DNA of 64,000 nt from Thermococcus sp. MAR1 (lineage in GTDB: Archaea; Methanobacteriota_B; Thermococci; Thermococcales; Thermococcaceae), in assembly GCF_012027305.1 (NCBI RefSeq), contig NZ_SNUF01000001.1, positions 1,240,001 through 1,304,000 of the forward strand, read 5' to 3'. The stretch's first letter is position 1; each line of letters begins with the position of its first letter. Below the pieces are notes generated by a model. The model did not search any database, was not told the origin of the DNA, and worked only from the letters and a program-made list of their open reading frames with translations. This document shows, one piece after another, positions 48,406 to 63,897 of the stretch. A program made the translations under genes and the position numbers.

Positions 48406-49017
48406 TTACCATCCGTAGCCGTACATCCTCGCCATCAGGTGCCTCTTGATTTGCCTGCCGTAGTAGTAGCCTATGGCCATTCCAACGAGGAGCCCGCCCA
48501 GGTGGGCGTAGACGTTGACGCCCGGCAGGATGCTGTTTATCAGGAAGAGCACGAAGGCGTTTATCAGCGCGGCCTGCATGTTGCCTCCGACGACGCCCGT
48601 TATGAGTATCAGCGCCCCGACTATGCCGAAGAGGGCTCCACTCGCACCGGCGCTGGCCGAGTTGGCTGGCAGCAGGAGGAGCGTCAGCAGGTTTCCGGCT
48701 AAACCAGAGACGAGGTAGACCATGACGAGCCTCTTCGGCCCGAGGATTCCCTCAAGCTGTCTGCCCATCATCAGGAGGAAGTACATGTTGAAGCCTATGT
48801 GGAGTATGCCGACGTGCACGAACATCGCGGTTATTAGTTGCCACCAGGCACCATTGATGACGGCGTAGTTCCACTGGCCGAGCCTTGCAAGGACTCCGAT
48901 GCTTATACTGAGCGGGTTCCCGCTGAGGATTGCCTCGACTATGTAAACGGCCACGTTTATCAGGAACAGCGTAAACGTCGCCTTCCCGTAGCGGGCAAAA
49001 TACTTCTCAAGACTCAT
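48406..49017 (-). CDS. Rhomboid-family intramembrane serine protease
   Basis: A 203-residue membrane protease with six core segments. The catalytic dyad is Ser126 in AGASGALFG and His172 in VNVYAHLGG, and the oxyanion residues lie in HIGFNMYFL (Asn77). It cleaves substrates within or near membrane helices; targets in archaea are unknown. The 3' gene boundary is followed by about 200 nt of AT-rich DNA up to tRNA-Leu with no further gene. Its start overlaps the end of the FBPase/IMPase gene by 11 nt, so they form an operon. Confidence 0.94.
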   Translation of the reverse strand: MSLEKYFARYGKATFTLFLINVAVYIVEAILSGNPLSISIGVLARLGQWNYAVINGAWWQLITAMFVHVGILHIGFNMYFLLMMGRQLEGILGPKRLVMVYLVSGLAGNLLTLLLLPANSASAGASGALFGIVGALILITGVVGGNMQAALINAFVLFLINSILPGVNVYAHLGGLLVGMAIGYYYGRQIKRHLMARMYGYGW

Positions 49018-49789
49018 TTTCCAGCTCCTCCAGAATCATGTCGAGCAGGTAGCGGTCGTTGACGGCTATTACGTTTGTCTTGCTCGTTGCGTCGAGCCTC
49101 AGCTCCAGCTCCTTCCCCCTCTCGTCCGTGACTATCGCCCCCGCCTCCCTCGCTATCAGCACTCCTGCCGCTATATCCGTCGTCCTCACGTAGTTCCTTA
49201 TGTCCAGGACACCGTCGAGGGCCCCCTTTGCCAGGTAGGTAAGCTCAACGGCTATCGCACCGAGGACGCGGACGCGTTTGACTCTCCTTATTAGGCCCAA
49301 ACACCTGCCGCGCGTGTAGAAGCTGAGTGCCTCCTTTCCGCGCTCGGGTTTCCTGACTCTTATGGGCTTTCCGTCCATGTAGGCGCCTTCCCCAGGCAGG
49401 GCCTCGTAAAACGTCTTTGTGGCGAACTCGTATATCGCACCATAGATGGGCTTCCTTCCTTTAAAGACGGCGAAGCTGAAGGCGAATATTGGTATGCCTG
49501 CGGCGAAGTTGTACGAGCCGTCTATGGGGTCAACGATGACCGTGTAGTCGCTCCCGTTGTCTATGAAGCCTATCTCCTCGCTGACGACATTAACGCCCAG
49601 GGGCTGAAGTCTGCTAAGAACAACGTCTTCAGCCACTTTGTCAACGTATTTGGTAACGTCTCCGCTGACGTTCTCTCCTATCGCCTCCCCTGCCTTGGGA
49701 GTGCCGAAGAGGGGCATTACTTCCTTTTCAACCTCCCTCGCGGTTTCGAGGGCGACCTCGTTCCACGGGATTTCCGTATTAGTTTTCAT
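49007..49789 (-). CDS. Inositol-1-monophosphatase/fructose-1,6-bisphosphatase
   Basis: A 260-residue archaeal dual-activity phosphatase of the IMPase family. Metal-binding motifs are VSEEIGF, VDPIDGSYNFAAG and, near the end, TTDIAAGVLIAREAG. In Thermococcales it can make myo-inositol for the compatible solute di-myo-inositol phosphate and also hydrolyses fructose 1,6-bisphosphate, although a separate class V FBPase serves gluconeogenesis. The ATG at 49789 follows GGGTGGTTAGT and lies next to the stop of the DUF63 gene. Confidence 0.92.
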   Translation of the reverse strand: MKTNTEIPWNEVALETAREVEKEVMPLFGTPKAGEAIGENVSGDVTKYVDKVAEDVVLSRLQPLGVNVVSEEIGFIDNGSDYTVIVDPIDGSYNFAAGIPIFAFSFAVFKGRKPIYGAIYEFATKTFYEALPGEGAYMDGKPIRVRKPERGKEALSFYTRGRCLGLIRRVKRVRVLGAIAVELTYLAKGALDGVLDIRNYVRTTDIAAGVLIAREAGAIVTDERGKELELRLDATSKTNVIAVNDRYLLDMILEELENES

Positions 49790-49790
49790 A

Positions 49791-50600
49791 CTAACCACCC
49801 ATCAGCATTATCAACAGGTTCCTCGTTCCCGGCCCGAAGCCGAGGATGAACATCGTGAGCTTCACGAAGTTGATCAGATCTGGATCCTCGTCCTTCATCC
49901 ACCTGTCGAGTATCCACACCACAGGCAACAGTATTAGGAACTTCTCGGCGTATATAACCGCCGGCGTCCCGAAGGCATCCATAAGCCACCTTGCGAGGAC
50001 GTGCTGCTCCCAGAAGCCAAGGAACTGGATTCCTACAAATGTGGTTGTAGCGTCGTAGAAGTGGGTGTAAAAGAGGAGCGAGTTGTCCCTGACGAGGGTG
50101 AGCTTCTTTGAGACGAGCCATATAAATGCCTCGGCTATTATCAGCGCCGGAATGAAGTACTTGAAGACCTCCGGGTTGAAGTTAACCCTTCCCAGGTTTA
50201 TTATCAGGACGAAGACTAACCCACCGAGCAGAACCCAGCCGAAGTCCCTATAGAGAGGATAAAACTTCTCTCCGGAGCAATGCCTCCACACGGCGTAGAG
50301 AGACGCTATCGCAAAGGCCGCTATGACGAAGTAGCCGCCGGGGCTGACGGTCAGGTAAGTCCTTGGGAGGATTCCAACGTCGGTCATGCTCCGCATCAGC
50401 GGGCCAAGGATTATGTACGGAATGAGCGCTTTGAAGAAGCGGTCGTCAACCTTTATTCCCATCCGTTTGAGCATCTTGTAGAGGAGCATCACAGCTATGC
50501 CCAGGATTATGGCGTAGACAACCGTGTTCACGGGATTGTAACCCTGGTTTTCCTGTATCGGTTTTATGAAGTACTCGTAAAAGAACTCGTAGAGCCCCAT
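49791..50600 (-). CDS. DUF63 family membrane protein
   Basis: A 269-residue protein with about seven membrane segments. It matches the DUF63 pattern: NPVNTVVYAIILGIAV near the N-terminus, the conserved YIILGPLMRSMTDVGIL, and DATTTFVGIQFLGFWEQHVL. The family is archaeal and has no assigned function. The ATG at 50600 has GGTGGTCGA upstream; a longer frame crosses the promoter. It starts the operon that continues with the phosphatase and rhomboid. Confidence 0.87.
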   Translation of the reverse strand: MGLYEFFYEYFIKPIQENQGYNPVNTVVYAIILGIAVMLLYKMLKRMGIKVDDRFFKALIPYIILGPLMRSMTDVGILPRTYLTVSPGGYFVIAAFAIASLYAVWRHCSGEKFYPLYRDFGWVLLGGLVFVLIINLGRVNFNPEVFKYFIPALIIAEAFIWLVSKKLTLVRDNSLLFYTHFYDATTTFVGIQFLGFWEQHVLARWLMDAFGTPAVIYAEKFLILLPVVWILDRWMKDEDPDLINFVKLTMFILGFGPGTRNLLIMLMGG

Positions 50601-50674
50601 TCGACCACCATAGACCGTTGTTCCGATAGCCTTAAAGCTTTTCCCACCCATTATCTATCTGGACGGTGGTTGAG

Positions 50675-51715
50675 ATGCATCTGATGCAGCTGCCCAGAGA
50701 GGTGCTGCTGGGCGAAAATCTGAAGGGAGAGGCCGTTAACGTCGCGAAGAGGCTTGGTCTGGGTGAGAGAGCTTTAGTGCTCTATGGGCCGAAGACGAAA
50801 GAGATAGCCGGAAAGGACATCGAAAAGAGTCTCAGGGAGTCGTTTGAGGTGAGCGCGCTGGTAATCCGGGAGGCCAACATGGAGGAGGTCGAGAAGACCC
50901 TGACTAAAATTAGGGACGATAACTCTGACTGGCTCATAGCCGTTGGAGGGGGTAGCATAATCGACGTCGCCAAGCTTGCCTCGTTTAAAGCCGGAGTTCC
51001 CTTCATCAGCTTTCCCACTACAGCTTCCCACGACGGCATAGCGAGTGCAAACGCATCCATCAAGGACCTCGGGACCAAAACGTCGGTCAAGGCCGTGCCT
51101 CCGGTGGCGGTGATAGCCGACGTGAGGGTCATCAAGACCGCCCCCTACCGCTACCTCGCGGCTGGCGTTGGCGACATGATAAGCAACCTAACCGCTGTAA
51201 AGGACTGGCAGCTGGCCCACAGGATAAAGGGCGAGTACTACAGCGAGTACGCGGCTTCACTGAGCCTGATGAGCGCCAAGATGGTGATAAAGAACGCGGA
51301 CATAATACGCCTCGGCAACGAGGAGAGCGTGAGGAAGGTTGTGAAGGGTCTTATTTCGTGTGGCGTGGCCATGAGCATAGCCGGCTCTTCAAGGCCAGCC
51401 AGCGGTGCGGAGCACCTCTTCAGCCATGCGCTCGATGCCATAGCGCCAAAACCGGCCCTGCACGGTGAGCAGGTCGGAGTTGGGACGATAATAATGGCGT
51501 ATCTCCACGGGCTCAAGTGGGAGCGGATTAGGGAAACCTTAAAGAAGGTCGGGGCGCCAACTAACGCATACGAGCTTGGGATCGACCCGGAGTATATAAT
51601 TGAGGCCCTCACGATTGCCCACACGATACGGCCCGAGAGATACACGATCCTCGGAAAGGACGGCCTCACGCGAGAAGCCGCCGAAAAGGCCGCTAAAATC
51701 ACAGGGGTCATCTGA
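50675..51715 (+). CDS. egsA: sn-glycerol-1-phosphate dehydrogenase
   Basis: Makes glycerol 1-phosphate from dihydroxyacetone phosphate with NAD(P)H, the step that sets the stereochemistry of archaeal lipids. The 346-residue iron-alcohol-dehydrogenase-like enzyme has the N-terminal [11 protein letters not shown], cofactor motif [30 protein letters not shown] and the metal histidines in [12 protein letters not shown] and [10 protein letters not shown]. The ATG at 50675 follows GGTGGTTGAG. It diverges from the DUF63 gene. Confidence 0.96.
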
Positions 51716-51747
51716 AGATCACCGCTTCAAAAACGGAGGTGTTTGGA

Positions 51748-52182
51748 ATGGCAATAATCACGTTAGTTGGGGAAAAGCTGGCAAGACCTGGGGTTGAGTT
51801 CATATATTACGGCCCGGCAGAACCGTGCAAGACGTGCAAATTAGCTGGAGTCTGCGTCGGAAACCTGGAACCCGGCAGGAGGTATAAAATTCTCAGGGTA
51901 AGGAGCATGCCCTCTCACTCCTGCCCGCTTCACGAGGGCAAGGTTCGCGTCGTCGAGGTCGTCGAGCCGAGCATCGAGGTCGCGATAGAGCCGAGGCTGG
52001 CCATAGCCGGTTCCGTGATAAAGCTTCACTTCGCGGACTGCAGCGACAGGGAAAAAGCGGATCTGTTCAGGCCGGAGGGCCTCTTCGAGGGCGACCACGT
52101 GAAGATAATAGAGATCCTCGACGATGTCGAGTGCGGTGGCAGGACATACAAGGTCGTCAAGGTCATGCGCAAGAAGGACTGA
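51748..52182 (+). CDS. UPF0179 family protein
   Basis: A 144-residue archaeal protein of unknown function. Several conserved cysteines are visible ([35 protein letters not shown]), suggesting a metal or iron-sulfur site, although no activity is known. The ATG at 51748 has GGAGGTGTTTGGA upstream; it probably shares the transcript of egsA, whose stop is 33 nt away. Confidence 0.9.
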
Positions 52183-52184
52183 CC

Positions 52185-53186
52185 TCATTCTTTTTCCACT
52201 TTTGTGAACGCAATCAGCTCTTCTTCCCCCGTTCTTATTCTGTAAATGCGCATCTTCCCATCGAGGAAGTTCCTAATGGCCATCAGAGTTTTCTCGCGCC
52301 TAATCAGCAGCTCCCAGGCTTCGTCAACACTCACCGCCTCAAACCTCAGCCTCTCCCCCGGCCTGCTCTGTGCAACTATGGGAAGATCGGCCGTTGAAAC
52401 GACGGCTATCTTGGCGTAGCCGCCGGTTGTCTGGGCGTCGTGAAGCATCACTATCGGCTTTCCGCTGGACGGCACCTGAACCGTTCCAGGCAGCAGGGGC
52501 TCCGTAACGATGTCCGCGCCCCTCTCGGAGTGTTCTATGGTCTTTCCATCGAGGCGGTAGCCCATCCTGTCGGACTCGGGAGTTACGGTATAGGACTCGC
52601 TCAGGAAGGTCTCTATCCCCTCTTCGGTGAAGTGGTCGAGGCCGGGGCCGAGGACGACGCGGACGGTCTTTTCCTTAGAAGAATAGTCCGGCCTCAGCTC
52701 GGAGGGAAGGTATCTCCCTTCCTTCCCGGCTAGTATCGCGTAGCCGAGGCTTAGCCTATCGCCGGCCTCCAGTGGCCTTCCGAGACCGGCCTTGGGATAG
52801 GCCGAGCAACTGCCAAGGAGCCTTTCGCACTTTATCCCGCCGGCGAAGGCTATGTATCCGTAGAGGCCGCTCTTCAAGGCGCCAACCTCAAGGATGTCGC
52901 CCCTCTTGGCCCAGTAACTCCTCCAGGGTTCAATTGGGACGCCGTTTAGCTTCACCTCAACATCCCCAGCGATAGCAAAGACTGCCGAGGAATTGAATCT
53001 AAGCGTTGGGCCGGCCAGAAGGAACTCAAGGAGCGGAGCATCGCCGGGGTTTCCGACGAGGTAGTTCGCTATCCTCGCGGAGTAGTCGTCCATGAAGCCT
53101 GAAACCGGAACGCCGAGCTTTCGGTAGCCTCTCCTGCCTGAGTCCTGGACGGTTAGAAGCGAGGGCACTTTTAGGAGCTCAATCAT
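52185..53186 (-). CDS. pxpC: 5-oxoprolinase subunit C (biotin-dependent carboxyltransferase family)
   Basis: A 333-residue subunit of the PxpABC 5-oxoprolinase, which hydrolyses 5-oxoproline to glutamate with ATP. Family blocks include SLLTVQDSGRRGYRKLGVP at the N-terminus, PLLEFLLAGPTL, and SDRMGYRLDGKTIE with PSSGKPIVMLHDAQTTGGYAKIA in the C-terminal half. It is equivalent to KipA/urea-amidolyase C domain. The ATG at 53186 has GGGGTGAAAGGA upstream and overlaps the pxpB stop by 8 nt, so expression is coupled. Confidence 0.93.
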   Translation of the reverse strand: MIELLKVPSLLTVQDSGRRGYRKLGVPVSGFMDDYSARIANYLVGNPGDAPLLEFLLAGPTLRFNSSAVFAIAGDVEVKLNGVPIEPWRSYWAKRGDILEVGALKSGLYGYIAFAGGIKCERLLGSCSAYPKAGLGRPLEAGDRLSLGYAILAGKEGRYLPSELRPDYSSKEKTVRVVLGPGLDHFTEEGIETFLSESYTVTPESDRMGYRLDGKTIEHSERGADIVTEPLLPGTVQVPSSGKPIVMLHDAQTTGGYAKIAVVSTADLPIVAQSRPGERLRFEAVSVDEAWELLIRREKTLMAIRNFLDGKMRIYRIRTGEEELIAFTKVEKE

Positions 53187-53865
53187 TCCTTTCACCCCAT
53201 TCACGCTCGTAGAGCTCCCTGAATTCATCTTCGTCTACTGGGACGAACCTCACCCTGTCACCCGGCTGGAGAAGAGTTGGCGGCTCTTTCGATGGATCGA
53301 AGAGTCTCAGGGGAGTCCTGCCTATAAGCCTCCAACCCCCGGGGCTTTCGAGGGGGTAAATACCGGTCTGCTTTCCCGCTATTCCCACAGAGCCTGCTGG
53401 CACTTTCAGGCGAGGCTTTTCAAGTCTTGGTGTCGCTATCCTATCGTCCATTCCGCCGAGGTATGCAAACCCTGGGAGGAAGCCGAGGAAGTAGACGCGG
53501 TAGACCGGCCTCGAGTGAATTTCTATGACCTCATCAACGCTCAGGCCATTGTATTCCGCCACGAACTCCAAATCGGGACCGTATTCACCGCCATAAACGA
53601 CTGGAACCTCCACGAGTTTCCCCTCGAAGCGCTCTGAAGTGAACTCGACCCCCTCAACGGCCCGCTTGACGCTTTCGAAGTCTATCAACACAGGATTGTA
53701 AATTACAGCGAGGGATGAATAAGCCGGAACGACTTCGACGAGCCACTCAAAGTTGGCCTTCTCTATTGCCCTCGCGAGGGAGTGTATTTTCTCGTTTAGC
53801 TCCTCGTCTATAACCTCGCCGAAGGAAATCAGCAGGGCGGAATCGCCGAGGGGTTTGAATTTCAT
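53179..53865 (-). CDS. pxpB: 5-oxoprolinase subunit B
   Basis: A 228-residue KipI-like subunit. Typical blocks are LGDSALLISFGEVID at the start, LVEVVPAYSSLAVIYNP, FLGFLPGFAYLGGMD and VPAGSVGIAGKQTGIYP. With PxpC it forms the carboxylase/hydrolase core. The ATG at 53865 has GGTGAGACC upstream; the longer reading frame upstream overlaps a small separate ORF. It lies between that ORF and pxpC. Confidence 0.94.
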   Translation of the reverse strand: MKFKPLGDSALLISFGEVIDEELNEKIHSLARAIEKANFEWLVEVVPAYSSLAVIYNPVLIDFESVKRAVEGVEFTSERFEGKLVEVPVVYGGEYGPDLEFVAEYNGLSVDEVIEIHSRPVYRVYFLGFLPGFAYLGGMDDRIATPRLEKPRLKVPAGSVGIAGKQTGIYPLESPGGWRLIGRTPLRLFDPSKEPPTLLQPGDRVRFVPVDEDEFRELYEREWGERND

Positions 53866-53869
53866 GGTC

Positions 53870-54001
53870 TCACCTTTTGCGGTCAAATTCCTTCCGAATC
53901 TCCTTCGGATTAAAATCCTTCTCAAAGATTCCGAACGCAGATTCTAGGTCTCGCTGGAACGCTTCAATCTTTTTCTTATCCCAAGTCCTCTTGGGTTTCA
54001 T
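53870..54001 (-). CDS. 43-residue ORF inside the pxp operon
   Basis: A short frame between pxpA and pxpB. It starts at an ATG that overlaps the pxpA stop as ATGA and ends 4 nt before the pxpB ATG; its stop TGA is part of the pxpB ribosome binding site region. The product ([20 protein letters not shown]..., ending DRKR) is basic and helical. I know no such protein. The placement and coupling at both ends argue for real translation, either as a small subunit or as a coupling device. Confidence 0.6.
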
Positions 54002-54765
54002 CGTATAAACTCCCCCATTGGCACTATCTTAACGCCCTCCTCCTCAAGAACCTCCCTGATGTGCTTTGCTATCTCAACAGCTTTTGGATTGTCGCCGTGC
54101 ACGCAGATGGTATCAGCTTTCAGCTCAATCCACTCGCCGTTTATCGCTTTCACCCCCCCATCCTTGACCATCGAGATAACGCGCTCGGCTATCTCTTCTC
54201 TGTCGTGAATTACTGCCCCGGGTTTCGAGCGCGGGACGAGTGTTCCGTCCGGGTTGTATGCCCTGTCGGCAAAAACCTCGTGGGCCACCTTAACTCCCAT
54301 CTCCTCCGCTATTTCAGCCGGCCTTGAGCCCGAGAGGGTAACGAATATCAGGTTCTTATCGAAGTCCGCTATACCTTCTATCACAGCTCTCGCGAGTTCC
54401 TCTTCTCTGACTAGGGCGTTGTACAAAGCACCGTGTGGCTTGACGTGCTGTAACTCAAGGTCCTCAGCCCTCGTGAAGGCATAAAGCGCCCCAATTTGAT
54501 AGAGGATGTAGTTCCTCGCTTCCTCCGGTGAAAGCTTCATGTACCTCCTTCCGAATCCGAGCAAATCCGGGTAGCCCGGGTGAGCACCGAGGGCCACGCC
54601 CTTCTCCTTCGCGAGCCTCACGGTTTTTCTCATGACCAGCGGGTCGCCGGCGTGCCAGCCGGTAGCTACGTTGGCGCTCGTGATGTGGTTCATGACCTCC
54701 TCATCGAGACCAAGCTTGTAACGGCCGAAGCTCTCCCCGAGGTCAGAGTTCAGGTCAACCTTCAT
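53998..54765 (-). CDS. pxpA: 5-oxoprolinase subunit A (LamB/YcsF family)
   Basis: A 255-residue TIM-barrel-like subunit. It begins [19 protein letters not shown], followed by [40 protein letters not shown] and [14 protein letters not shown], the conserved order of the family. It supplies the ring-opening activity with PxpBC. The ATG at 54765 has GGTGAGAGC upstream; longer extensions cross the divergent nob1 promoter. It heads the operon. Confidence 0.95.
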
Positions 54766-54823
54766 GCTCTCACCACTTTCATTTCGACGGAAATCTAAAA
54801 AAGGGTTTCTCCGAGTTAGGGGT

Positions 54824-55318
54824 ATGAAGGCCCAGGTCATAGACACCGCGATATTCATCCAGGGGGTTGATGTTGAGGGCGTTACGACGCCGAAGGTCGT
54901 CGATGAGGTGAAAGACCCGGAGTCGAGGCTTTTCTTGGAGGGACTGATTAGTGCGGGCAAGGTCAGGGTTCTCCAGCCGTCGAGGGAAAGCATTAGAGCC
55001 GTAATGGAAGCTGCCAAAAAGACGGGAGAACTTGGAGAACTCAGCGAGGCAGACCTTGAGGTTCTTGCCCTGGCGTACGAGCTTAAAGGGGTTCTCCTCA
55101 CAGATGACTACAACCTCCAGAACATAGCGAAAACCCTCGGTATGGAGTTTAAAACCCTCAAAAGAGGGATAAAGCGCGTAATCAGGTGGAACTACGTCTG
55201 CATTGGCTGTGGGAAGCGCTTCAAGGAGATGCCCCCCGAAGGAGTCTGTCCCGACTGTGGGAGTCCGGTAAGGCTAATCCCTAAGAGAAAACGAAAAAAG
55301 AGGAGGTTTCATCCGTAG
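54824..55318 (+). CDS. nob1: rRNA-processing endonuclease NOB1 (PIN + zinc ribbon)
   Basis: A 164-residue PIN nuclease that matures the 3' end of 16S rRNA in archaea. Asp7 (QVIDTAIFI), Glu in VVDEV, Asp in [11 protein letters not shown] and Asp in [12 protein letters not shown] form the metal site. A zinc ribbon follows (CIGCGKRF and CPDCGSP), then a basic tail (KRKRKKRR). It diverges from pxpA and its end overlaps the convergent amidase gene by 10 nt. Confidence 0.94.
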
Positions 55319-56283
55319 ATATCGACGACTATTCTATCCGGGCCGCTCAGCGTGAAGTCCCTGTATGGAAGGTATGGAGTGTTCAGCTCAACGACGATGA
55401 ATACGTAACCGCTGCTCTCGGTGGCGTATATCACAGGGGCGATGTAGGAACCCGTGTAGGTGTACTGCCAGTTGCCGTAGGTCTGCCAGCCGAGGTCTGA
55501 GAGTCTGGCGTTATCAAGTTGGATAACGAGATGGTAGCCGTTCGAGTAGGAGGTGTAGTAGGTGTGGTAGCTAACCGCCTTGCTGAGATCAACCACCAGC
55601 CTGAAGTAGCCGTCGTGCTGGGCGAACCTTATGCCCATAACCGTCGGAACCGGGTCGTGAACCGGAACACCAAAGTACCGCTGAACCCCGTGGAGTATCG
55701 CGTAAGCGTAGCGCCACTGGTAGTTCTCGTCGGTTATTACCCTCACGTCGTAGGTGTTCGTCACAAAGCCGGTCTCGATGAGTATTGCCGGCATGGAGGT
55801 ATACTTGAGGACGTAGAAGCCGGCCTCCTTAACGCCCCTGTTGTTGAGCGGGATCACCTTGGCTATTTCCCCATCAACGTAGGTCGCGAGGAGGTTGCCC
55901 CTGTACGAGCCGTAGTAATGGTAGACCTCAAAACCGCTCGCAGAACTCGGCCCGGAGTTGGCGTGTATGCTGATGAAGATATCGCAACCGGCGGAGTTTG
56001 CTATCTGCACCCTTCCGGAGAGGGTGACGAAGTAGTCACCGTCCCTGGTGAGGACAACCCGCGCGCCGTCATCTTGGAGAACCTTAGCGACTTTGAGCGC
56101 TATTGCAAGGTTGATGTCCTTCTCCTGAACGCCGTTGGCGACCGCTCCGGGGTCCGTTCCTCCGTGTCCGGCATCGACGCAGATGGTGTAGCCACTCAAA
56201 TCCGTCCCCGAGGCGGAAGTGGGAACCGGGACTATGGCGAGTGCCAGCAGAACTACACCCAAAACCACGGCAGCTTTCCTCAT
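55309..56283 (-). CDS. Secreted N-acetylmuramoyl-L-alanine amidase-like protein with AMIN-like domain
   Basis: A 324-residue exported protein. After a signal peptide ([20 protein letters not shown]) there is an Amidase_3 zinc hydrolase with ligands His40 (VDAGHGGTD), Glu54 (VQEKDINLA) and His107 (ISIHANSG) and catalytic Glu170 (LIETGFVTN). The last 100 residues look like an AMIN-type beta domain ([23 protein letters not shown]). Archaea have no murein, so it may act on bacterial peptidoglycan or on another amide. Zinc and catalytic residues are intact. Confidence 0.92.
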
Positions 56284-56422
56284 ATTTTATCCCCCCAGAT
56301 AGCGAAACTAACTTCTAAATCCCTTTCCAAGCTTTATAAAACTTGTCAGAATTGTTCTGTTCATGGCATTGATGGATAAAAATGAGCATGAATAAAGACA
56401 TGGAACTAATTAGAAATGGCAG

Positions 56423-56432
56423 ATTGGCGTCC
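56423..56432. repeat. ATTGGCGTCC element, short copy
   Basis: A shorter form of the element found at 23592 and 58448, here at the 3' edge of the second C/D box RNA candidate on minus; part of it is in the closing stem. Confidence 0.3.
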
Positions 56433-56510
56433 CGGACGGGCTCGGCGCTCATAGGGTACGTCACCGCTATTGCTCAGCCCGTCTTGGAATCGTCACGGCC
56501 CGTCCGGGAC
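56429..56510 (-). ncRNA. Second C/D box-like RNA inside a 13-bp closing stem
   Basis: On minus the order is: stem GTCCCGGACGGGC (56510-56498), C-like box GTGACGA (56496-56490), guide TTCCAAGACGGG (56489-56478), D' box CTGA (56477-56474), linker, C'-like GTGACG (56464-56459), guide of about 13 nt, D-like CCGA (56445-56442), stem GCCCGTCCGGGAC (56441-56429). The boxes are degenerate except D'. The first guide is complementary to CCCGTCTTGGAA, close to the CCCGUCUUG segment I recall from archaeal and eukaryal large-subunit rRNA. The long stem is unusual for C/D RNAs. Confidence 0.55.
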
Positions 56511-56514
56511 GGCG

Positions 56515-56570
56515 TCAGGGCCAGTCCTCGTCATCACAACGCTCGGTGCAATTCGCTGTCATCATCCGCG
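56515..56570 (-). ncRNA. C/D box guide RNA
   Basis: On minus, directly after the stop of the RHH-like gene: C box ATGATGA (56565-56559), guide CAGCGAATTGCA (56558-56547), D' box CCGA (56546-56543), C' box TGATGA (56536-56531), guide CGAGGACTGGCC (56530-56519) and D box CTGA (56518-56515). Both guides are 12 nt, the normal archaeal spacing for 2'-O-methylation guides bound by L7Ae, Nop5 and fibrillarin. No separate promoter is visible, so it probably comes from the upstream operon by processing. Confidence 0.75.
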
Positions 56571-56572
56571 GT

Positions 56573-56971
56573 TCAACCTTGGAGGTAGTAGGATATAAGC
56601 TTTCTCAGCTCGACGTTGCGCTCGGGCTTCATTCTCAAAAACCTCTTAAGCTGGCTGTTCTCGGCAAGTAATCCGGAAAGCTCGATGGCGAGTATCTTGT
56701 TGTCCTCGCTCAGGCCGTAGGCCTTGAAGCGGAGCGGGGCGTACTCCTTCTCAAGCTCCCACGTCCTTTCCTCAAGCTCCCGTGCTTTTCTTTCAAGCTC
56801 CTCAAGGTTTCCCTTCGGCTCACGGAACTCGCCGGTCAGGGCTATCTCAATGACCCGCTCAACGGGAACTCCATACCTCTCACTGAGGCGCTTGAGTTCT
56901 CCCCACAGCTCTTCGTTTATCTCGGCCTCAATTTTTCCAAAGCCCTTGTTCGGCTTGATGATGAGCCTCAT
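56573..56971 (-). CDS. Ribbon-helix-helix-like protein with coiled coil
   Basis: A 132-residue protein. The first part (KIEAEINEELWGELKRLSER, then YGVPVERVIEIAL) has the strand-helix-helix pattern of ribbon-helix-helix DNA-binding proteins. A coiled-coil region follows (NLEELERKARELEERTWELE), then a leucine-rich end. I know no named family. The ATG at 56971 is preceded by GGAGTG, which lies in the loop of an inverted repeat. It is the last protein gene of the glycosylase operon. Confidence 0.7.
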   Translation of the reverse strand: MRLIIKPNKGFGKIEAEINEELWGELKRLSERYGVPVERVIEIALTGEFREPKGNLEELERKARELEERTWELEKEYAPLRFKAYGLSEDNKILAIELSGLLAENSQLKRFLRMKPERNVELRKLISYYLQG

Positions 56972-56974
56972 CTC

Positions 56975-57013
56975 GTTCACACTCCGTGAACGATTTGTTC
57001 ACGATCCGTGAAC
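56975..57013. promoter_or_regulatory. Array of four alternating GTTCAC/GTGAAC half-sites, 11-bp period
   Basis: Half-sites at 56975-56980 (GTTCAC), 56986-56991 (GTGAAC), 56997-57002 (GTTCAC) and 57008-57013 (GTGAAC), each separated by exactly 5 bp. They span the stop of one coiled-coil gene and the start region of the RHH-like gene. In the RNA, GUUCAC-GGAGU-GUGAAC forms a hairpin with the ribosome binding site in its loop. It could be a protein-bound operator, an RNA switch, or both. Confidence 0.6.
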
Positions 57014-57331
57014 CTCCTCAAGCTCTCTCCTTTTCTCCTCGACCCTCTTCCTCAGTTCAGCGTTTTCCACCCTGAGCCTGTCGCGCTCGGCCATCATGAA
57101 CTCCTTATCCCTCAAAGCCTTCTCGTAGAACTCCTTAAGATCTTCAATCTCACCCTCCATCTCGCGGAGCTTCTCCTCCAGCTTGGAGACCTTCTCCCTC
57201 AGGAGATCCTCACGCTCTGCCTGGAGGGTCTCTTCAACTCTGGGGAGGCTCTCGCGGAGGAAGGAGGTGATATCTTTGCCCTTGAGGGCTTTGAACCTTT
57301 CCTTGGGCAGGATAATCCTGATTTCGCTCAT
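56999..57331 (-). CDS. Coiled-coil protein
   Basis: A 110-residue protein. A short N-terminal strand-helix (EIRIILPKERFKALKGKDIT) leads into a continuous coiled coil of about 80 residues (SKLEEKLREMEGEIEDLKEF; RDRLRVENAELRKRVEEK). The ATG at 57331 overlaps the stop of the DNA glycosylase gene as ATGA with GGAGAGGAAG upstream. The sequence is not recognised; it may dimerise and pair with the RHH-like protein encoded next. Confidence 0.7.
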   Translation of the reverse strand: MSEIRIILPKERFKALKGKDITSFLRESLPRVEETLQAEREDLLREKVSKLEEKLREMEGEIEDLKEFYEKALRDKEFMMAERDRLRVENAELRKRVEEKRRELEEVHGS

Positions 57332-58158
57332 TTCTTCTTCCTCTCCATCTCGGTCTTCCTGTCGTAGCAGAGGATGTAAAATGCCAGAAGCCCCTTCCAC
57401 TTCCCGTAGGGTTCAATGACCTCGCGGACGTCTTTCTCCTTAACCTCTTTAAGGCTCCTCCCAAAAATCTTTGCTATCCCGCGCCTCAGCCCGAGGTCTC
57501 CGGCAGGGTAGACGTTCTTTCTGAGGCCATACGCGAGGAAGAGCTCGGCGCTCCACTTCCCTATGCCCCGGAACTCTGTGAGGTACCTGATAGCCTCATT
57601 AACGCCCCAGTCCCAGAGTTCGAGGTCGAGCTTTCCGGCAAGGTAAAGCTCCGTCAGGGACTTTATGTAAGCGGCGCGATAGCCGAGCTTGGCCCTTTTC
57701 AGCTCCTCCTCGCTCAGGGACGCTATCCTCTCCGGAGAGGGGAACGCGTGTAAATCCCCCACCTGCCTGCCCGCGAGCCTCACGAGGTTCTCTATGGTCC
57801 TCTGGGCGAACTCAAAGCTCACCTGCTGCTGGGCTACCGTCTCAACCAGCGCCTGGTAAGGGCTCGGCGCGGCAGGGACGGTCAGACCGTAGAACTCGTC
57901 AATCAGGAAGGAAAATGGGGAGTCGATTATTTCGGCGTAGAAGGAGTCCAGATTTGTGTTAAGGCCGAGGATGAAGGTCAGCTTTTCCTTCGCGGATTTT
58001 CGTTCCCTTCTGCCCCACGAGTCGGGAAAAATGAAGTTCCCTCCATCGTAGCCGGCGATACCGCTCTCAAAAGCTTGATAGAAAACACCGTCTTCGAACT
58101 TCCACGTGCCGTTGCGTATCATCTCGCCTGTGGTCTTCTTCAGGTCAATCTCAGCCAT
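57328..58158 (-). CDS. AlkA-like HhH DNA glycosylase
   Basis: A 276-residue base-excision repair enzyme of the HhH-GPD superfamily. The N-terminal beta domain resembles that of AlkA/OGG1; the helix-hairpin-helix is FRGIGKWSAELFLAYG and the catalytic Asp lies in PAGDLGLRRG. It probably removes alkylated or oxidised bases; a lysine at the AP-lyase position is not evident (WSAEL region has Lys-Trp), so it is likely monofunctional. No iron-sulfur cysteines are seen. It overlaps the 99-residue gene upstream by 19 nt and the coiled-coil gene downstream by 4 nt. Confidence 0.88.
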   Translation of the reverse strand: MAEIDLKKTTGEMIRNGTWKFEDGVFYQAFESGIAGYDGGNFIFPDSWGRRERKSAKEKLTFILGLNTNLDSFYAEIIDSPFSFLIDEFYGLTVPAAPSPYQALVETVAQQQVSFEFAQRTIENLVRLAGRQVGDLHAFPSPERIASLSEEELKRAKLGYRAAYIKSLTELYLAGKLDLELWDWGVNEAIRYLTEFRGIGKWSAELFLAYGLRKNVYPAGDLGLRRGIAKIFGRSLKEVKEKDVREVIEPYGKWKGLLAFYILCYDRKTEMERKKK

Positions 58159-58439
58159 CGGTCGAGCCTAACGGGGTTCTCCCTTATATCCTTTAGGGTC
58201 GAGACGTAAAGTCTCTTACCGTCAATGGAGCGTTTGATCTGGAGCTCCCCCTTTTCTTCGAGGAAGCGGAGGGCGTCTTTAACGTCCTCGGCACGGACAT
58301 CAAAGTTCTGCTTGAGGAACTCCCAGTACGGCTCGCGGTTGGAATATCTAGCCGCCTCCCTCACGAGCTTCCAGGCTCGTTCAACCTTCTCATCACCCCT
58401 GGCGACGCGATAGAGCTTGGCGAGGGTCTTCAAATTCAT
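58140..58439 (-). CDS. Small winged-helix-like protein
   Basis: A 99-residue protein that looks like a winged helix: three helices (KVERAWKLVREAARYSN; EDVKDALRFLEEKGELQ) and a wing (KRSIDGKRLYVSTL). I do not know the family. It starts the glycosylase operon. Its promoter TATA (GATTTATATG on minus, about 58460-58470) is close enough for a leaderless mRNA, and the TTGGCGTCCAA element lies between TATA and start. Confidence 0.68.
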   Translation of the reverse strand: MNLKTLAKLYRVARGDEKVERAWKLVREAARYSNREPYWEFLKQNFDVRAEDVKDALRFLEEKGELQIKRSIDGKRLYVSTLKDIRENPVRLDRWLRLT

Positions 58440-58447
58440 ATTAGAAG

Positions 58448-58459
58448 ATTGGCGTCCAA
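58448..58459. repeat. ATTGGCGTCCAA element, copy 2
   Basis: Identical 12-mer to 23592-23603, here between the TATA box and the transcript start of the glycosylase operon, the position of a repressor site. Confidence 0.45.
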
Positions 58460-58530
58460 CATATAAATCACTTTTGGCGAGCAGGCAAAAGATTTAAACC
58501 ATTGAGTGGTATTATTATCAGGCGATAGGA

Positions 58531-59868
58531 ATGAGACTGAAAATTGCCCTGGTTGCTCTGATGATGCTCGTCATGCTCCTGCCGAGTGTCCATGGCCAAG
58601 GCAACGTGGTTTACGTGGCCAAAGTTGACGGTATGATTACTGGCTACACCGTTGACCAGTTTGACAGATACATCAGCGAAGCCGAGAGGAACAACGCAGA
58701 GGCAATAATAATCGAGCTCAACACCCCAGGTGGCCGCGCCGATGCAATGCAGGCCATCGTTACGAGAATCCAAAACTCAAAGGTTCCTGTCATAATCTAC
58801 GTTCATCCCTCCGGAGGGATGGCGGCCTCTGCAGGCACTTACATAGCACTGAGCTCCCATCTGATAGCGATGACACCTGGCACTGTCATAGGGGCCTGTA
58901 GGCCTATACTCGGCTACGGCCAAAACGGGAGCATTGTCGAGGCCCCGCCAAAGATAACGAACTTCTACGTGGCCTACCTCAGGGAGCTCGCGAGGATGAG
59001 CGGGAGAAACGAGACACTCGCCGAAGAGTTTATAACGAAAGATAGGAGCGTCACTCCGGAGGAGGCACTGAGATACGGTGTCATCGAGGTTATTGCAACT
59101 AACGTTGACGAACTTCTCCAGAAGGCCGATGGAATGGAGACAAAGATACCCGTGGCTGGAAGGGGGAAGGTAACCCTGCACCTCAGGAACGCGAGACTCG
59201 TCTACATCGAGCCGTCCTTCAGGGACACGGTAGTCAAGTACATAACTGACCCGACGATAGCGTACCTCCTCCTCAACCTTGGATTCATCGGCCTAATATT
59301 CGGCTTCCTCACACCCGGCTGGCACGTTCCTGAAACAGCAGGTGCCATAATGCTCGTTCTCGGCCTCATAGGCCTGGGATATTTCGGTTACAGCAGCGCG
59401 GCATTAATACTCATCGTGCTCGCCATGATATTCTTCATAGCCGAAGCACTGACGCCGACCTTTGGCTTGTTCACCGTAGCGGGCGTCATAACCTTTATTC
59501 TGGGTGGAATCATGCTCTTCAGCGGAAACGGGGGTGAATACCTGGTGACCGGTGAAACGTACTCGATACTCAGAATAGCCATCATCGTCATGGCAATACT
59601 CCTTGGACTGTTCTTCCTCTTCGGTGCGGCGACAGTGATCAAAGCACACAGGAAGAAGCCAGAGGCCGGAAGGGAGGAGCTCGTGGGAGAGGTCGGTAAG
59701 GTAGTCGAGGACCTCGACCCTGAAGGAGTCGTCAAGCTCCACGGTGAACTCTGGAAGGCGGAGAGCAAGGATGGAAATAGGATACCCGTTGGAGAAAAAA
59801 TTAGGGTTGCTGAAGTCAAGGGGCTCACCCTTATCGTTGAAAGAATTGAGGACAGGAGGGAGGAATGA
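58531..59868 (+). CDS. nfeD: NfeD-type membrane serine protease (stomatin operon partner)
   Basis: A 445-residue membrane protein. Signal peptide (1-21), ClpP-like protease domain with catalytic Ser100 ([12 protein letters not shown]) and Lys141 (APPKITNFY), about five membrane segments (residues 240-375) and a C-terminal OB-fold NfeD domain. The Ser-Lys spacing of 41 equals that of the P. horikoshii homologue PH1510 as I recall it, which cleaves the stomatin encoded next to it. The stop overlaps the stomatin ATG (ATGA). Confidence 0.95.
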
Positions 59869-60719
59869 GTATGGCCCTTGTAAGCGCCGGAAATGTTGTG
59901 TTGGCCATCGTTTTGTTGTTTGTGTTAATTATACTGGCAAGCGCCATAAAGATAGTCAAGGAGTACGAGAGGGCAGTGATATTCCGTCTCGGAAGAATAG
60001 TTGGGGCCAGAGGGCCTGGACTGTTCTTCATAATCCCGATATTCGAAAAGGCAGTAATAGTTGACCTTCGTACCAGGGTCCTGGACGTGCCCGTCCAGGA
60101 GACCATAACCAAGGACAACGTCCCCGTCAGGGTCAACGCGGTCGTTTACTTCCGCGTTATAGAGCCAGTCAAAGCGGTTACCCAAGTCAGCAACTACATC
60201 ATGGCCACCAGCCAGATCGCCCAGACGACGCTGAGAAGTGTCATCGGTCAGGCGCACCTCGACGAACTGCTCAGCGAGAGGGAGAAGCTTAACCTCCAGC
60301 TCCAGAAGATAATTGACGAGGCCACCGACCCATGGGGAATAAAGGTCAGTACGGTCGAGATAAAGGACGTTGAGTTGCCAAGCGGAATGCAGAGGGCAAT
60401 GGCGAGGCAGGCAGAGGCTGAGCGTGAGAGACGTGCTAGGATACTCCTTGCTGAGGCCGAGCGCCAGGCCGCCGAGAAGCTCCGTGAGGCCGCTGAGATA
60501 ATCTCGGAGCACCCCATGGCACTCCAGCTCAGGACGCTCCAGACCATAAGCGATGTTGCCAGCGACAAGAGCAACGTCATCGTACTCACCCTGCCGATGG
60601 AGATGCTGAAGCTCTTCAGGAGTCTCGCCGACACTGCAGAGGTCGCCAAGGTAAAGCTTGAGAAAGAGGTCCGTGAGGAAGCTGAAAAGGAAGCCGAGAC
60701 GAAGGCTGAGCAAGAGTAA
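59865..60719 (+). CDS. Stomatin/prohibitin (SPFH) family protein
   Basis: A 284-residue membrane-anchored scaffold protein. An N-terminal membrane segment ([20 protein letters not shown]) is followed by the SPFH domain ([36 protein letters not shown]) and a long coiled coil ([19 protein letters not shown]). The C-terminal hydrophobic piece around residue 235 ([12 protein letters not shown]) corresponds to the NfeD cleavage region in Pyrococcus. The ATG overlaps nfeD with GGAGGGAGGA upstream. It organises membrane domains together with NfeD. Confidence 0.95.
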
Positions 60720-60811
60720 GGTGTGAATGGCTTTTCTTCCATCTTTTCTTTTCCGTCCTGGATGAACCGCAAAAAATAAAAGCATTGCCTGCATACTTCA
60801 TACACACAGAG

Positions 60812-60822
60812 ACACCACTCCG
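60812..60822 (+). promoter_or_regulatory. Possible TATA of the MinD transcript
   Basis: CGTATAAAATT lies about 70-80 nt upstream of the TTG start of MinD; a second candidate (CGCTTTATGGG) is at about 60847-60857. The gap after stomatin has no gene. Confidence 0.35.
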
Positions 60823-60892
60823 TATAAAATTGAAGAACTTCAGGAACGCTTTATGGGAAAGAGCGCCAATGCTCATACCGGGGGTGTTAACT

Positions 60893-61672
60893 TTGGAAGG
60901 TCGTTCGATTGTTTTTGCATCGGGAAAGGGTGGAACGGGTAAAACAACGACTGTTGCCAATCTGGGTGTTGCCCTTGCCCAGTTTGGAAAGGAGGTTATC
61001 CTGCTGGATGCTGATATAACCATGGCAAACCTCAGCCTTGTTCTCGGTATGGAGGATATTCCAATAACACTCCACGATGTTCTGGCAGGAGAGGCCGATC
61101 TCAGGGATGCGATCTACGAAGGCCCGGCCGGGGTTAAGGTCATCCCCGGTGGGCTGAGCCTTGAGAAGATAAAGAAGGCCAAGCCAGAAAGGCTCAGGCA
61201 GCTTATCAGAGAAATCGGCCAGATGGCGGATTTTGTCCTCATCGATGCCCCAGCGGGCCTTGAGATGACGTCAGTTACAGCACTCCTCATTGGAAAGGAG
61301 CTTATAATCGTTACAAACCCCGAGATATCGGCCATCACGGACTCTCTCAAGACAAAACTAATCGCCGAGAAACTTGGAACCCTTCCGCTCGGTGCGATAC
61401 TCAACAGAGTCACCAACGAGAAGACCGAACTGACTCAGGAGGAGATAGAGGCCATACTTGAAGTTCCAGTCTTAGCCATGATACCCGAGGATCCGGAGGT
61501 CAAGCGTGCTTCCGCCTACGGTGTGCCCCTCGTCATCAAGAACCCGACCAGCCCTGCTGCCATAGCGATCAAGCAGCTCGCGGCCAAACTCGCGGGAATC
61601 AAGTGGCAGGCACCCGAGCCAGAGAGCCCGATAAAGAGGGTGTTCAAAGCACTGTTTGGAGGGAGGAAGTAA
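60893..61672 (+). CDS. minD: MinD/ParA-family ATPase
   Basis: A 259-residue deviant Walker A ATPase. The P-loop is ASGKGGTGKTT near the N-terminus, followed by LLDADITMANL and FVLIDAPAGLE, the A' and B motifs of MinD. Archaeal MinD proteins position membrane machinery such as chemosensory arrays or archaella rather than FtsZ. The frame runs back to 60785, but a TTG at 60893 with GGGGGTG six bases upstream places M just before EGRSIVFASGKGG, the family's usual N-terminus. A C-terminal tail (ESPIKRVFKALFGGRK) looks like an amphipathic membrane-targeting helix. Confidence 0.92.
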   Translation: MEGRSIVFASGKGGTGKTTTVANLGVALAQFGKEVILLDADITMANLSLVLGMEDIPITLHDVLAGEADLRDAIYEGPAGVKVIPGGLSLEKIKKAKPERLRQLIREIGQMADFVLIDAPAGLEMTSVTALLIGKELIIVTNPEISAITDSLKTKLIAEKLGTLPLGAILNRVTNEKTELTQEEIEAILEVPVLAMIPEDPEVKRASAYGVPLVIKNPTSPAAIAIKQLAAKLAGIKWQAPEPESPIKRVFKALFGGRK

Positions 61673-61920
61673 TGGCCAGCGTGTTGCTCTATGGAATAGT
61701 GGTCATTCTCATAGTGCTCAACATCGTCCTCCTCATGCTCTACTACTCAGCCAAGAGCAACCCGTACTACGTCGTTTACGACGAGGAAACCAAGAGCGCC
61801 CTCAAAAGGCGTGTCACCAGCCTCAAGGAAGACCTTGAGAGTGAGCTCGTTGACTTCGATGTCGAGGAGTGGGAGAGAACCCTCGAGGAGTCGATAGACG
61901 AAGAGGTCAGGAACCTCTGA
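61672..61920 (+). CDS. Small membrane protein coupled to MinD
   Basis: An 82-residue protein with one N-terminal membrane helix (LLYGIVVILIVLNIVLLMLY) and an acidic cytosolic tail. Its ATG overlaps the MinD stop (TAATG), with GGAGGGAGG upstream, so the two are translated together. It is unnamed; it could be a membrane anchor or partner of MinD, which is inference from the coupling only. Confidence 0.78.
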   Translation: MASVLLYGIVVILIVLNIVLLMLYYSAKSNPYYVVYDEETKSALKRRVTSLKEDLESELVDFDVEEWERTLEESIDEEVRNL

Positions 61921-62010
61921 ACTTTTCCGTTCCTTTTGTTATTAAACATTTCTGGGGCGTTAAATTTTAAAAACCCATCAGTATTAATTCCATTCTGGGG
62001 GTGGGGCGCT

Positions 62011-62259
62011 ATGAAGGTTAGACTCGGCTATCCAGATAGGATAGTCGAGGTAGAAGACAAGATGGTCCGTGTTTTTAAGGGCCGACTCGTAAGCGCCCCG
62101 CTGAGCGAGGTCATCGGCTACTACCTCAGGGGAGAAGGACTTCTGCCGCCGGCGGTAAGGGAGATAGTCCCCGATGTCGTGAGGGTTCTCCTCAGCACCG
62201 GCGAACTCCAGAACAAAGTAGCTCCGGTGGTCGAGTACAGCCAAGGCCTCAGCGGCTGA
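62011..62259 (+). CDS. Small conserved hypothetical protein
   Basis: An 82-residue soluble protein (MKVRLGYPDRIVEVEDKMV...) with a mixed alpha/beta sequence and no known motif. The ATG at 62011 follows GGGGGTGGGGCGCT, and a TATA-like TTAAATTTTAAAAACC lies about 40-50 nt upstream; the frame extends to 61936 across that promoter, so earlier starts are unlikely. Function unknown. Confidence 0.68.
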   Translation: MKVRLGYPDRIVEVEDKMVRVFKGRLVSAPLSEVIGYYLRGEGLLPPAVREIVPDVVRVLLSTGELQNKVAPVVEYSQGLSG

Positions 62260-62385
62260 CCTTTTTACATTTCCCTGCCAAGCTTTATGAATGACTGTGC
62301 TCATTTTGACGACCAATCAGTTGAAAACATTTAAGTACTCTTCTGACCAATACTGTGAACTCGTGTGTGAAAGGGAGGGATGATA

Positions 62386-63897
62386 ATGAAGGCCAAGGTT
62401 AGGATACTCGACATGTACAGCGGGAGGTATTCAGTCTTTATCAACGAGAAGGAAGCCAAGAAGGCCAAACTCCACCCGGATGACCTCGTGAAGATAGAGG
62501 CCGGAAAGAAAACCGTCTACGGAAGCGTTGTCGTGAGCAACCTCGTGAAGGAGGGGGAGATTGGGATAAGCAGGGACATACTCGGGCTCCACAGCTTCTC
62601 CGAGGGAGAGGTCGTCACCGTCATACCCAGCGGTACCCCCGAGAGCGTCCGCTACATAAAGAAGAAGATGCACGGAGGAAAACTCAGGAAAGTCGAGATA
62701 GAGGCGATAATCAAGGACATCGTGGACAGAAAGCTCCGTGACATCGAGATAAGCTCTTTCGTTACCTCGCTTGAGATAAACGGCCTCGACATGGATGAGA
62801 TTGCCGCACTGACGATAGCGATGGCCGAGACCGGAGACATGCTCGACATAGACAGAAAGCCGATCATGGACGTCCACAGCATCGGAGGCGTCCCCGGAAA
62901 CAAGACCAACATACTCGTCGTGCCGATAGTTGCAGCCGCGGGATTGACGATACCCAAGACCAGCTCGAGGGCAATCACTAGCGCCGCAGGCACCGCCGAC
63001 GTGGTTGAGGTTTTCGCAGAGGTTAGCTTTTCCCTCGACGAAATAAAGCGCATCGTGGAAAAGATAGGCGCCTGTATGGTCTGGGGCGGTGCTCTGAACC
63101 TCGCCCCTGCCGACGACATTACGATAAAGTCCGAACGCGCGCTGAGCATCGACCCAACTGGCCTCATGCTGGCAAGCATAATGTCAAAGAAGTATGCGAT
63201 GGGAAGCCAGTACGTCCTCATCGACATCCCAACGGGCAAGGGCGTCAAGGTGGAAACGGTCGATCAGGCGAGAGCCTTGGCCAGGGACTTCATAGAGCTA
63301 GGCAGAAGGCTCGGCCAGTACGTAGAGGTGGCTATAACCTACGGCGGTCAGCCGATAGGCCACACCGTCGGTCCCGCCCTAGAGGCCAGAGAGGCCCTTT
63401 CAGCACTCATGACCGGGAAGGGCCCAGGAAGCCTGATAGAGAAGGCCACCGGGCTGGCAGGCATTCTCCTTGAGATGGGCGGAGTTGCTCCGACAGGGAT
63501 GGGCAAGAAGATGGCGAGAGAAATCTTGGAGAGCGGAAAAGCCTACGAGAAGATGAGGGAGATCATAGAGGAACAGGGTGGAAACCCCGACATCAAGCCG
63601 GAGGAGATACCGATAGGCGATAAGACCTACACCTTCACGGCCCCTATCAGTGGCTACATAACCGGAATAGACAACAAGGCAATAACTGCGATAGCCAGGG
63701 CCGCCGGTGCCCCCGAGGACAAGGGGGCTGGAATAGAACTATACGTCAAAGTCGGAGAGAAGGTCAAGGAAGGCGACCCCCTATTCACGATACGCGCCGA
63801 GAGCGAGGCCAGACTCGACCAGGCAATAGTCCTTGCCAGGAGAACAGAGCCGATAAGGATAGAGGGAATGGTGCTACAGAGGATAGGGAACATCTGA
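62386..63897 (+). CDS. deoA: AMP phosphorylase
   Basis: Phosphorolyses AMP (and CMP/UMP) to the base and ribose 1,5-bisphosphate, which then enters the archaeal type III RuBisCO pathway for nucleotide breakdown. The 503-residue protein has an N-terminal extra domain of about 85 residues, typical of the archaeal group, and the thymidine-phosphorylase core with [28 protein letters not shown] and [14 protein letters not shown]. The length equals that of the T. kodakarensis enzyme as I recall it. The ATG at 62386 follows AGGGAGGGATGAT. Confidence 0.95.

Follow-up and report, generated by a model that had tools for sequence, protein, structure and literature searches.

Murein hydrolases of archaea that kill bacteria have already been published (PMC12352652, PMC4241558). 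Woldo and Danwoldo of the halophile Halogranum salarium, built from M23, glucosaminidase and PG_binding_1 domains, combine a signal peptide with a catalytic and a wall-binding domain in an archaeal host without murein (PMC12352652). The peptidoglycan hydrolases (PGHs) reported with them are patchily distributed and of bacterial origin, and two kill a bacterium; a signal peptide is present in 32% of the archaeal modular PGHs of Strock et al., and patchiness and fast turnover are consistent with a use of archaeal murein hydrolases in bacterial conflicts (PMC12352652). A further likeness to the present case is offered by the GH25 muramidase of Aciduliprofundum boonei, an archaeon of hydrothermal vents. 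This enzyme groups with those of Firmicutes, is antibacterial and is expressed more strongly when the archaeon grows together with a Thermotogae bacterium (PMC4241558). The protein described here shares the patchy presence of the archaeal modular PGHs and joins an Amidase_3 domain to AMIN. It differs from Woldo and Danwoldo in its domains (Amidase_3 and AMIN-like) and in belonging to a hyperthermophile genus, and from the A. boonei enzyme, which is of a glycosidase family, in being an amidase.

The gene lies in the window, the 64,000-nucleotide stretch of Thermococcus DNA analyzed here. The initial annotation had proposed an intact, secreted enzyme of murein amidase type with zinc ligands, a catalytic glutamate and an AMIN-like domain, in a host expected to have no murein. 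Each of these points was borne out: the 324-residue open frame matches Amidase_3 and begins with a putative signal peptide recognized by eye, the four active-site residues (H40, E54, H107 and E170) are present in all 15 intact copies, and the AMIN-like domain, to which we add its C-terminal position, passes its Pfam cut-off. The host belongs to the genus Thermococcus, which as an archaeon makes no murein. The features are as follows.

55309..56283, minus strand: whole gene, encoding a 324-residue, apparently secreted Amidase_3/AMIN-like protein (open frame, Pfam, 15 intact copies in the genus)
56333..56340, minus strand: TTTATAAA, a TATA-like element some 50 nt upstream of the start codon (by eye, unscored)
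56289..56296, minus strand: G-rich Shine-Dalgarno-like stretch GGGGGGAT (by eye)
56212..56283, minus strand: putative Sec signal peptide, residues 1–24 (by eye and hydropathy)
55681..56184, minus strand: Amidase_3 catalytic domain, residues 34–201 (Pfam; structure matches to CwlV, AmiC2 and YrvJ, Z 30–32)
56164..56166, minus strand: zinc ligand H40 (invariant, 15/15)
56122..56124, minus strand: zinc ligand E54 (invariant, 15/15)
55963..55965, minus strand: zinc ligand H107 (invariant, 15/15)
55774..55776, minus strand: catalytic E170 (invariant, 15/15)
55318..55644, minus strand: C-terminal AMIN-like domain, residues 214–322 (PF24837 over cut-off; model matches PilQ AMIN)
54764..55318, plus strand: flanking gene for a PIN/Zn-ribbon protein (PRK12496) that bounds the slot on one side (conserved gene order)
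56573..56980, minus strand: flanking gene for a short protein without a Pfam match, the other border of the slot (conserved gene order)

The open frame starts with ATG, has no internal stops and encodes the only Amidase_3 match in the whole genome. Transcription probably begins at a promoter of the gene's own, because the start codon is preceded by a TATA-like element and a G-rich ribosome-binding site. It is convergent with the PIN/Zn-ribbon gene, and the two ends overlap by ten bases. Contamination is not the explanation, since the gene sits in a 1.39-Mb contig whose surrounding gene order is common to other genomes of the genus. The putative signal peptide consists of MRK, a hydrophobic core and TSA|SG, without a lipobox cysteine (judged by eye). 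With a KD19 value of 2.5 (at most 1.3 elsewhere), it is the sole strongly hydrophobic stretch in the protein, which would be exported through the Sec system and carry no anchor.

The match to Amidase_3 (PF01520) is strong (E 2.3e-57; 194.3 bits against a cut-off of 27). All 15 intact Thermococcus copies keep the three zinc ligands and the catalytic glutamate unchanged, and they are 66–98% identical to the copy in the window. The same residues are widely kept in 78 other Amidase_3 open frames (bacterial, viral and two archaeal; 74 are distinct and four are second copies): H40 in 73, E54 in 77, H107 in all 78 and E170 in 76. C35 and C100, the sole cysteines of the protein, are also invariant in the 15 intact copies, and both positions are cysteine in just 2 of the 78 other frames; our guess is that they form a stabilizing disulphide. 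The autoinhibitory insert is absent: residues 99–150 of the enterobacterial AmiB chain 8c0j fall between query residues 124 and 126, so that 50 AmiB residues face a single residue of the query. In Escherichia coli AmiA, AmiB and AmiC, a helix of this type of insert blocks the active site (PMC10268282). The absence of this division-amidase element suggests that the enzyme needs no activator.

An AlphaFold model was built from an alignment of 17 sequences, in which just two rows extend over the C-terminal domain. It has a pLDDT of 86.8, with the lowest values in residues 1–25 (below 50) and near 307–313. Residues 22–207 match a YrvJ model (Z 31.8), Clostridioides difficile 4rn7 (31.1), Nostoc AmiC2 (30.2) and CwlV (1jwq; Z 30.0, rmsd 1.1 over 175 residues), and the structure of AmiP (7b3n) is matched at Z 24.1. 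The predicted fold is that of murein amidases. Residues ~212–324 match the AMIN domain of PilQ in three entries (Z 12.2 over 96 residues, 11.7 and 11.4) and a Synechocystis protein (Z 11.2); Foldseek places the C-terminal domain with PilQ entries at E 0.003–0.006.

At the sequence level, residues 214–322 score 37.9 bits against PF24837 (cut-off 27). AMIN PF11741 reaches 38.7 bits against a cut-off of 20.5, with no single stretch passing alone. In the genus, PF24837 is found in this protein alone, at one place in each of 15 of the 61 genomes. By analogy with its bacterial relatives, the domain would bind bacterial peptidoglycan. The catalytic domain precedes AMIN here, whereas the AMIN-bearing bacterial homologues that were examined have AMIN first. 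We sought the same architecture in bacteria with a profile of the Thermococcus C-terminal domain, without success: the profile was never found behind the catalytic domain in the 78 Amidase_3 frames, and its nine matches at E ≤ 0.001 in 398 Bacillota genomes lie before a phosphodiester glycosidase (NAGPA) in six cases and before Amidase_3 in three. The best matches to the C-terminal domain were E 0.07 for plasmids (2 records) and E 0.2 for phages (3 records), and a search of viral contigs with this domain found none. Within this sample, which is mostly Bacillota, the order of catalytic domain followed by AMIN appears unusual.

The gene is present in 16 of 61 Thermococcus genomes and intact in 15. 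None of the 33 remaining genomes of the family carries it. An HMM search of 101 relatives found two further, divergent Amidase_3 proteins, one in a genome of the same class (G078, 70 bits) and one in a genome of the same domain (G100, 122 bits). The latter, from a distant archaeon, is a 1016-residue open frame with a different architecture (loci L016 and L036). In 14 of the 15 intact carriers the gene is bracketed by the common flanking pair; the copy of G042 is elsewhere. Thirty-four loci have no amidase at the slot (33 non-carrier genomes and G042). Both flanks are present in 33 of them and one locus ends at a contig end; no remnant of the amidase was detected at these loci (tblastn, 1e-4). 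Among the slot carriers, the amidase is on one side of an optional kinase in five, on the other side in four, and the kinase is absent in five. The gene was therefore inserted at two or more points, not counting its location in G042.

The contents of the slot (55309–56573 of the window; loci L020–L034 and L071–L104) vary between Thermococcus genomes within its conserved flanks. It may hold the amidase; a radical-SAM/DUF512 gene, an AAA kinase or both; or the gene for a 512-residue protein that looks secreted and has no Pfam match (L027:7331–8869). Beside the slot in another genome (L023:7116–8079), a nucleotidyltransferase/HEPN pair of toxin-antitoxin-like type stands between two short genes and gives PADLOC matches to the candidate systems PDC-M05 and PDC-S09. 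The amidase itself matches none of the defence-system models. In G016 a truncated amidase with stops adjoins the usual flank where the contig ends (L034:1–407). The gene pxpA is beside the slot in all 14 slot carriers. A functional link between the two was considered and is unsupported, as pxpA is present in 29 of the 34 amidase-free loci too.

Presence of the amidase was mapped onto a tree of the rpoB region (48 tips, 15 carriers), with genomes omitted if less than 90% complete, more than 5% contaminated or lacking the rpoB stretch. Twelve changes were needed, against 13.0 ± 1.3 with shuffled labels; 98 of 300 shuffles need as few, so presence shows no detectable clustering. With all 56 tips and 16 carriers, 13 changes were counted (unshuffled). 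On 47 tips, the slot kinase, used as a control, gave 2 changes (shuffles 15.9), the HEPN/NTase pair one gene from the slot 13 (shuffles 12.9) and the secreted 512-residue slot protein 4 (shuffles 4.85).

The tree of the amidase itself conflicts with that of rpoB. The close amidase pairs G014 + G059 and window genome + G001 are unpaired on the rpoB-region tree. Conversely, rpoB pairings forced on the amidase alignment were rejected by the AU test for G014 + G005 (p = 8e-4), G000 + G046 (2e-58), G042 + G020 (4e-4) and G056 + G059 (2e-9), these four having been picked after both trees were seen. Agreement is partial, as G019 and G002 are paired in both trees. Identity between G014 and G059 peaks at 98–99% over the amidase and is lower on both sides. 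Between the window genome and G001 (locus L025) it is 95% over 48408–53874, 91% over 54016–57253 and 82% over 57336–63897. The 5.5 kb at 95% identity suggest that DNA on the amidase's pxp side recombined as a block. In this pair (the window genome, G000, and G001) similarity extends beyond the amidase itself, which may therefore have arrived together with neighbouring DNA.

Selection was assessed over 105 pairs of copies. Median dN/dS is 0.10 for the catalytic domain (maximum 0.21) and 0.26 for the C-terminal domain (maximum 0.65), by a Nei-Gojobori count that covered all 105 pairs for these two domains and, with 42 pairs saturated, 62 for the signal region, which has the highest ratio of the three parts. 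This count was used in place of YN00, which gave values for 23, 12 and 9 of the 105 pairs. Taken with the contradiction between the amidase and rpoB trees, from which movement follows, these comparisons indicate that the gene moves between Thermococcus species under purifying selection.

The 15 Thermococcus catalytic domains form one clade (100/99) amid Bacillota enzymes, in an unrooted tree with weak deeper forks whose bacteria are mainly Bacillota, with other phyla barely sampled. The nearest row is a plasmid-borne amidase of Monoglobus (95/91 in one tree and 98/88 in the other). For the first tree, 10 of the 78 homologues were dropped (the four second copies and others that were partial or highly divergent, both archaeal rows among these); for the second, 22 of 78 were dropped, and the two archaeal rows and 6 of the 15 Thermococcus rows were used. 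In the best tree neither G078 nor G100 groups with the Thermococcus clade, but both proteins are too divergent for a firm placement, and the AU test does not reject a clade with G100 (p = 0.39). These results agree with the suggestion in the initial annotation of a transfer from Firmicutes (Bacillota), within that sampling of phyla. Nor do they show the old archaeal clade that it would have counted against its proposal: at E ≤ 1e-5 the protein has no match in the 54 genomes from the rest of the phylum. For the Thermotogales, the other source that it named, the control genome of Thermotoga maritima has no Amidase_3 match, while eight of the 14 control genomes have one.

Two other origins were considered. 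A recent transfer from a bacterium is rejected because bacterial catalytic domains are 35–50% identical among the matches listed and the Thermococcus copies have diverged into a clade of their own. Derivation from a phage lysin was also set aside: the phage and viral sequences sampled fall in other clades, with identities of 26–47% in one set and up to about 41% among the matches listed in another, and the slot is bordered by conserved chromosomal genes rather than a phage endolysin neighbourhood. Most likely, the sequence trees suggest, the gene was acquired from bacteria once, probably from a Bacillota donor, before most carrier lineages diverged, and moved within the genus later.

On this basis we think it reasonably probable that the protein is a zinc-dependent N-acetylmuramoyl-L-alanine amidase, secreted and used against bacteria, whose gene came from bacteria (probably Bacillota); its murein-cleaving activity is predicted from its family. 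It would leave the cell by the Sec route, unanchored, and the AMIN-like domain would hold bacterial peptidoglycan while the catalytic domain hydrolyses the amide bond joining N-acetylmuramic acid to L-alanine, so that nearby bacteria would be weakened or lysed. The benefit would most likely be antagonism toward bacteria and then feeding on the released material. As an archaeon without murein, the producer would therefore need no immunity. If the gene pays only where suitable bacteria co-occur, repeated gain by recombination and repeated loss would follow. The attack on competitors suggested in the initial annotation would fit this turnover. A stronger form of this proposal is offered tentatively, as somewhat short of an even chance: the protein may be a mobile antibacterial weapon, an activator-free and heat-adapted murein amidase of inverted domain order that passes between species mostly through one slot and is scattered like the HEPN/NTase pair. 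If true, this would mean a standing conflict between archaea and bacteria toward the upper end of the temperatures at which bacteria live. Against a use on live bacteria it counts that Thermococcus grows near 80–100°C, where living bacterial targets are fewer.

The same domain, residue and structure evidence would serve a murein scavenger equally well. Such an enzyme would apply the same chemistry to the peptidoglycan of dead or dying bacteria as a source of peptides and amino sugars, leaving living competitors unharmed. Thermococcus feeds on peptides, and patchiness fits scavenging, or any niche-dependent gene, too. Strock et al. leave scavenging possible and find PGH-bearing archaea more often with the full OppBCDF-MppA uptake set (PMC12352652). 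A nutrient gene, however, need not scatter like the HEPN/NTase pair (13 changes, shuffles 12.9), and pxpA, the tested neighbour with a possible role in amino-acid use, occurs in 29 of the 34 amidase-free loci as well. We regard scavenging alone as unlikely and rank antagonism, alone or with feeding, as most likely.

The absence of murein from the host also raises the idea that the target is a polymer of Thermococcus or of other archaea (S-layer glycan, exopolysaccharide or an amide-linked part of the envelope), cut, for example, when cells separate or release vesicles. The higher dN/dS of the C-terminal domain than of the catalytic one (0.26 versus 0.10) points to faster evolution, and the ligand of this domain may therefore differ from those of bacterial AMIN domains. 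Yet the catalytic residues and fold are of murein amidase type, 45 of the 61 genomes of the genus (some incomplete) have no match, with empty sites in 32 non-carriers, and presence is scattered like random labels. We consider this quite improbable; the "different polymer" of the initial annotation is possible as a substrate, with nothing further found in its favour. It is more improbable still, to the point of being hard to credit, that the gene is a selfish or neutral passenger, a bacterial gene of no use to its host in a recombination-prone slot. That slot does take other optional genes, and 1 of the 16 copies is broken (G016, cut at a contig end), but 15 of 16 are intact, are 66–98% identical to the window copy and are under purifying selection.

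Among known enzymes, the bacterial Amidase_3 proteins of CwlV/YrvJ/CwlD type and AmiC2 type share the catalytic fold, residues and compact domain of the Thermococcus protein. AMIN lies in front of the catalytic domain in the AMIN-bearing bacterial homologues found and behind it here. AmiA, AmiB and AmiC of E. coli have Amidase_3 in common with it and differ in their autoinhibitory insert. AmiB and AmiC carry AMIN at the N terminus; residues 36–61 of AmiC (4bin) match the Thermococcus C-terminal profile weakly (E 0.011). The heat-stable Amidase_3 enzyme AmiP of a Thermus parvatiensis prophage, by contrast, is a phage lysin of a bacterium (PMC9929850). Among the matches listed from the open literature on Thermococcus amidases or peptidoglycan hydrolases and on archaeal AMIN amidases, no title or abstract opening describes the protein. 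The main text of PMC12352652 does not contain the string "Thermococc", and the protein may still stand in its supplementary list.

The protein is a candidate heat-stable murein amidase. Genetically tractable strains of Thermococcus exist, and with carrier and non-carrier species at hand they open the question of fighting or eating to deletion and co-culture. Genetic manipulation of A. boonei was not feasible for Metcalf et al. (PMC4241558). What the present case adds to the archaeal enzymes already published is its uncommon order of domains, together with an exceptionally clear trace of gene movement inside a single archaeal genus.
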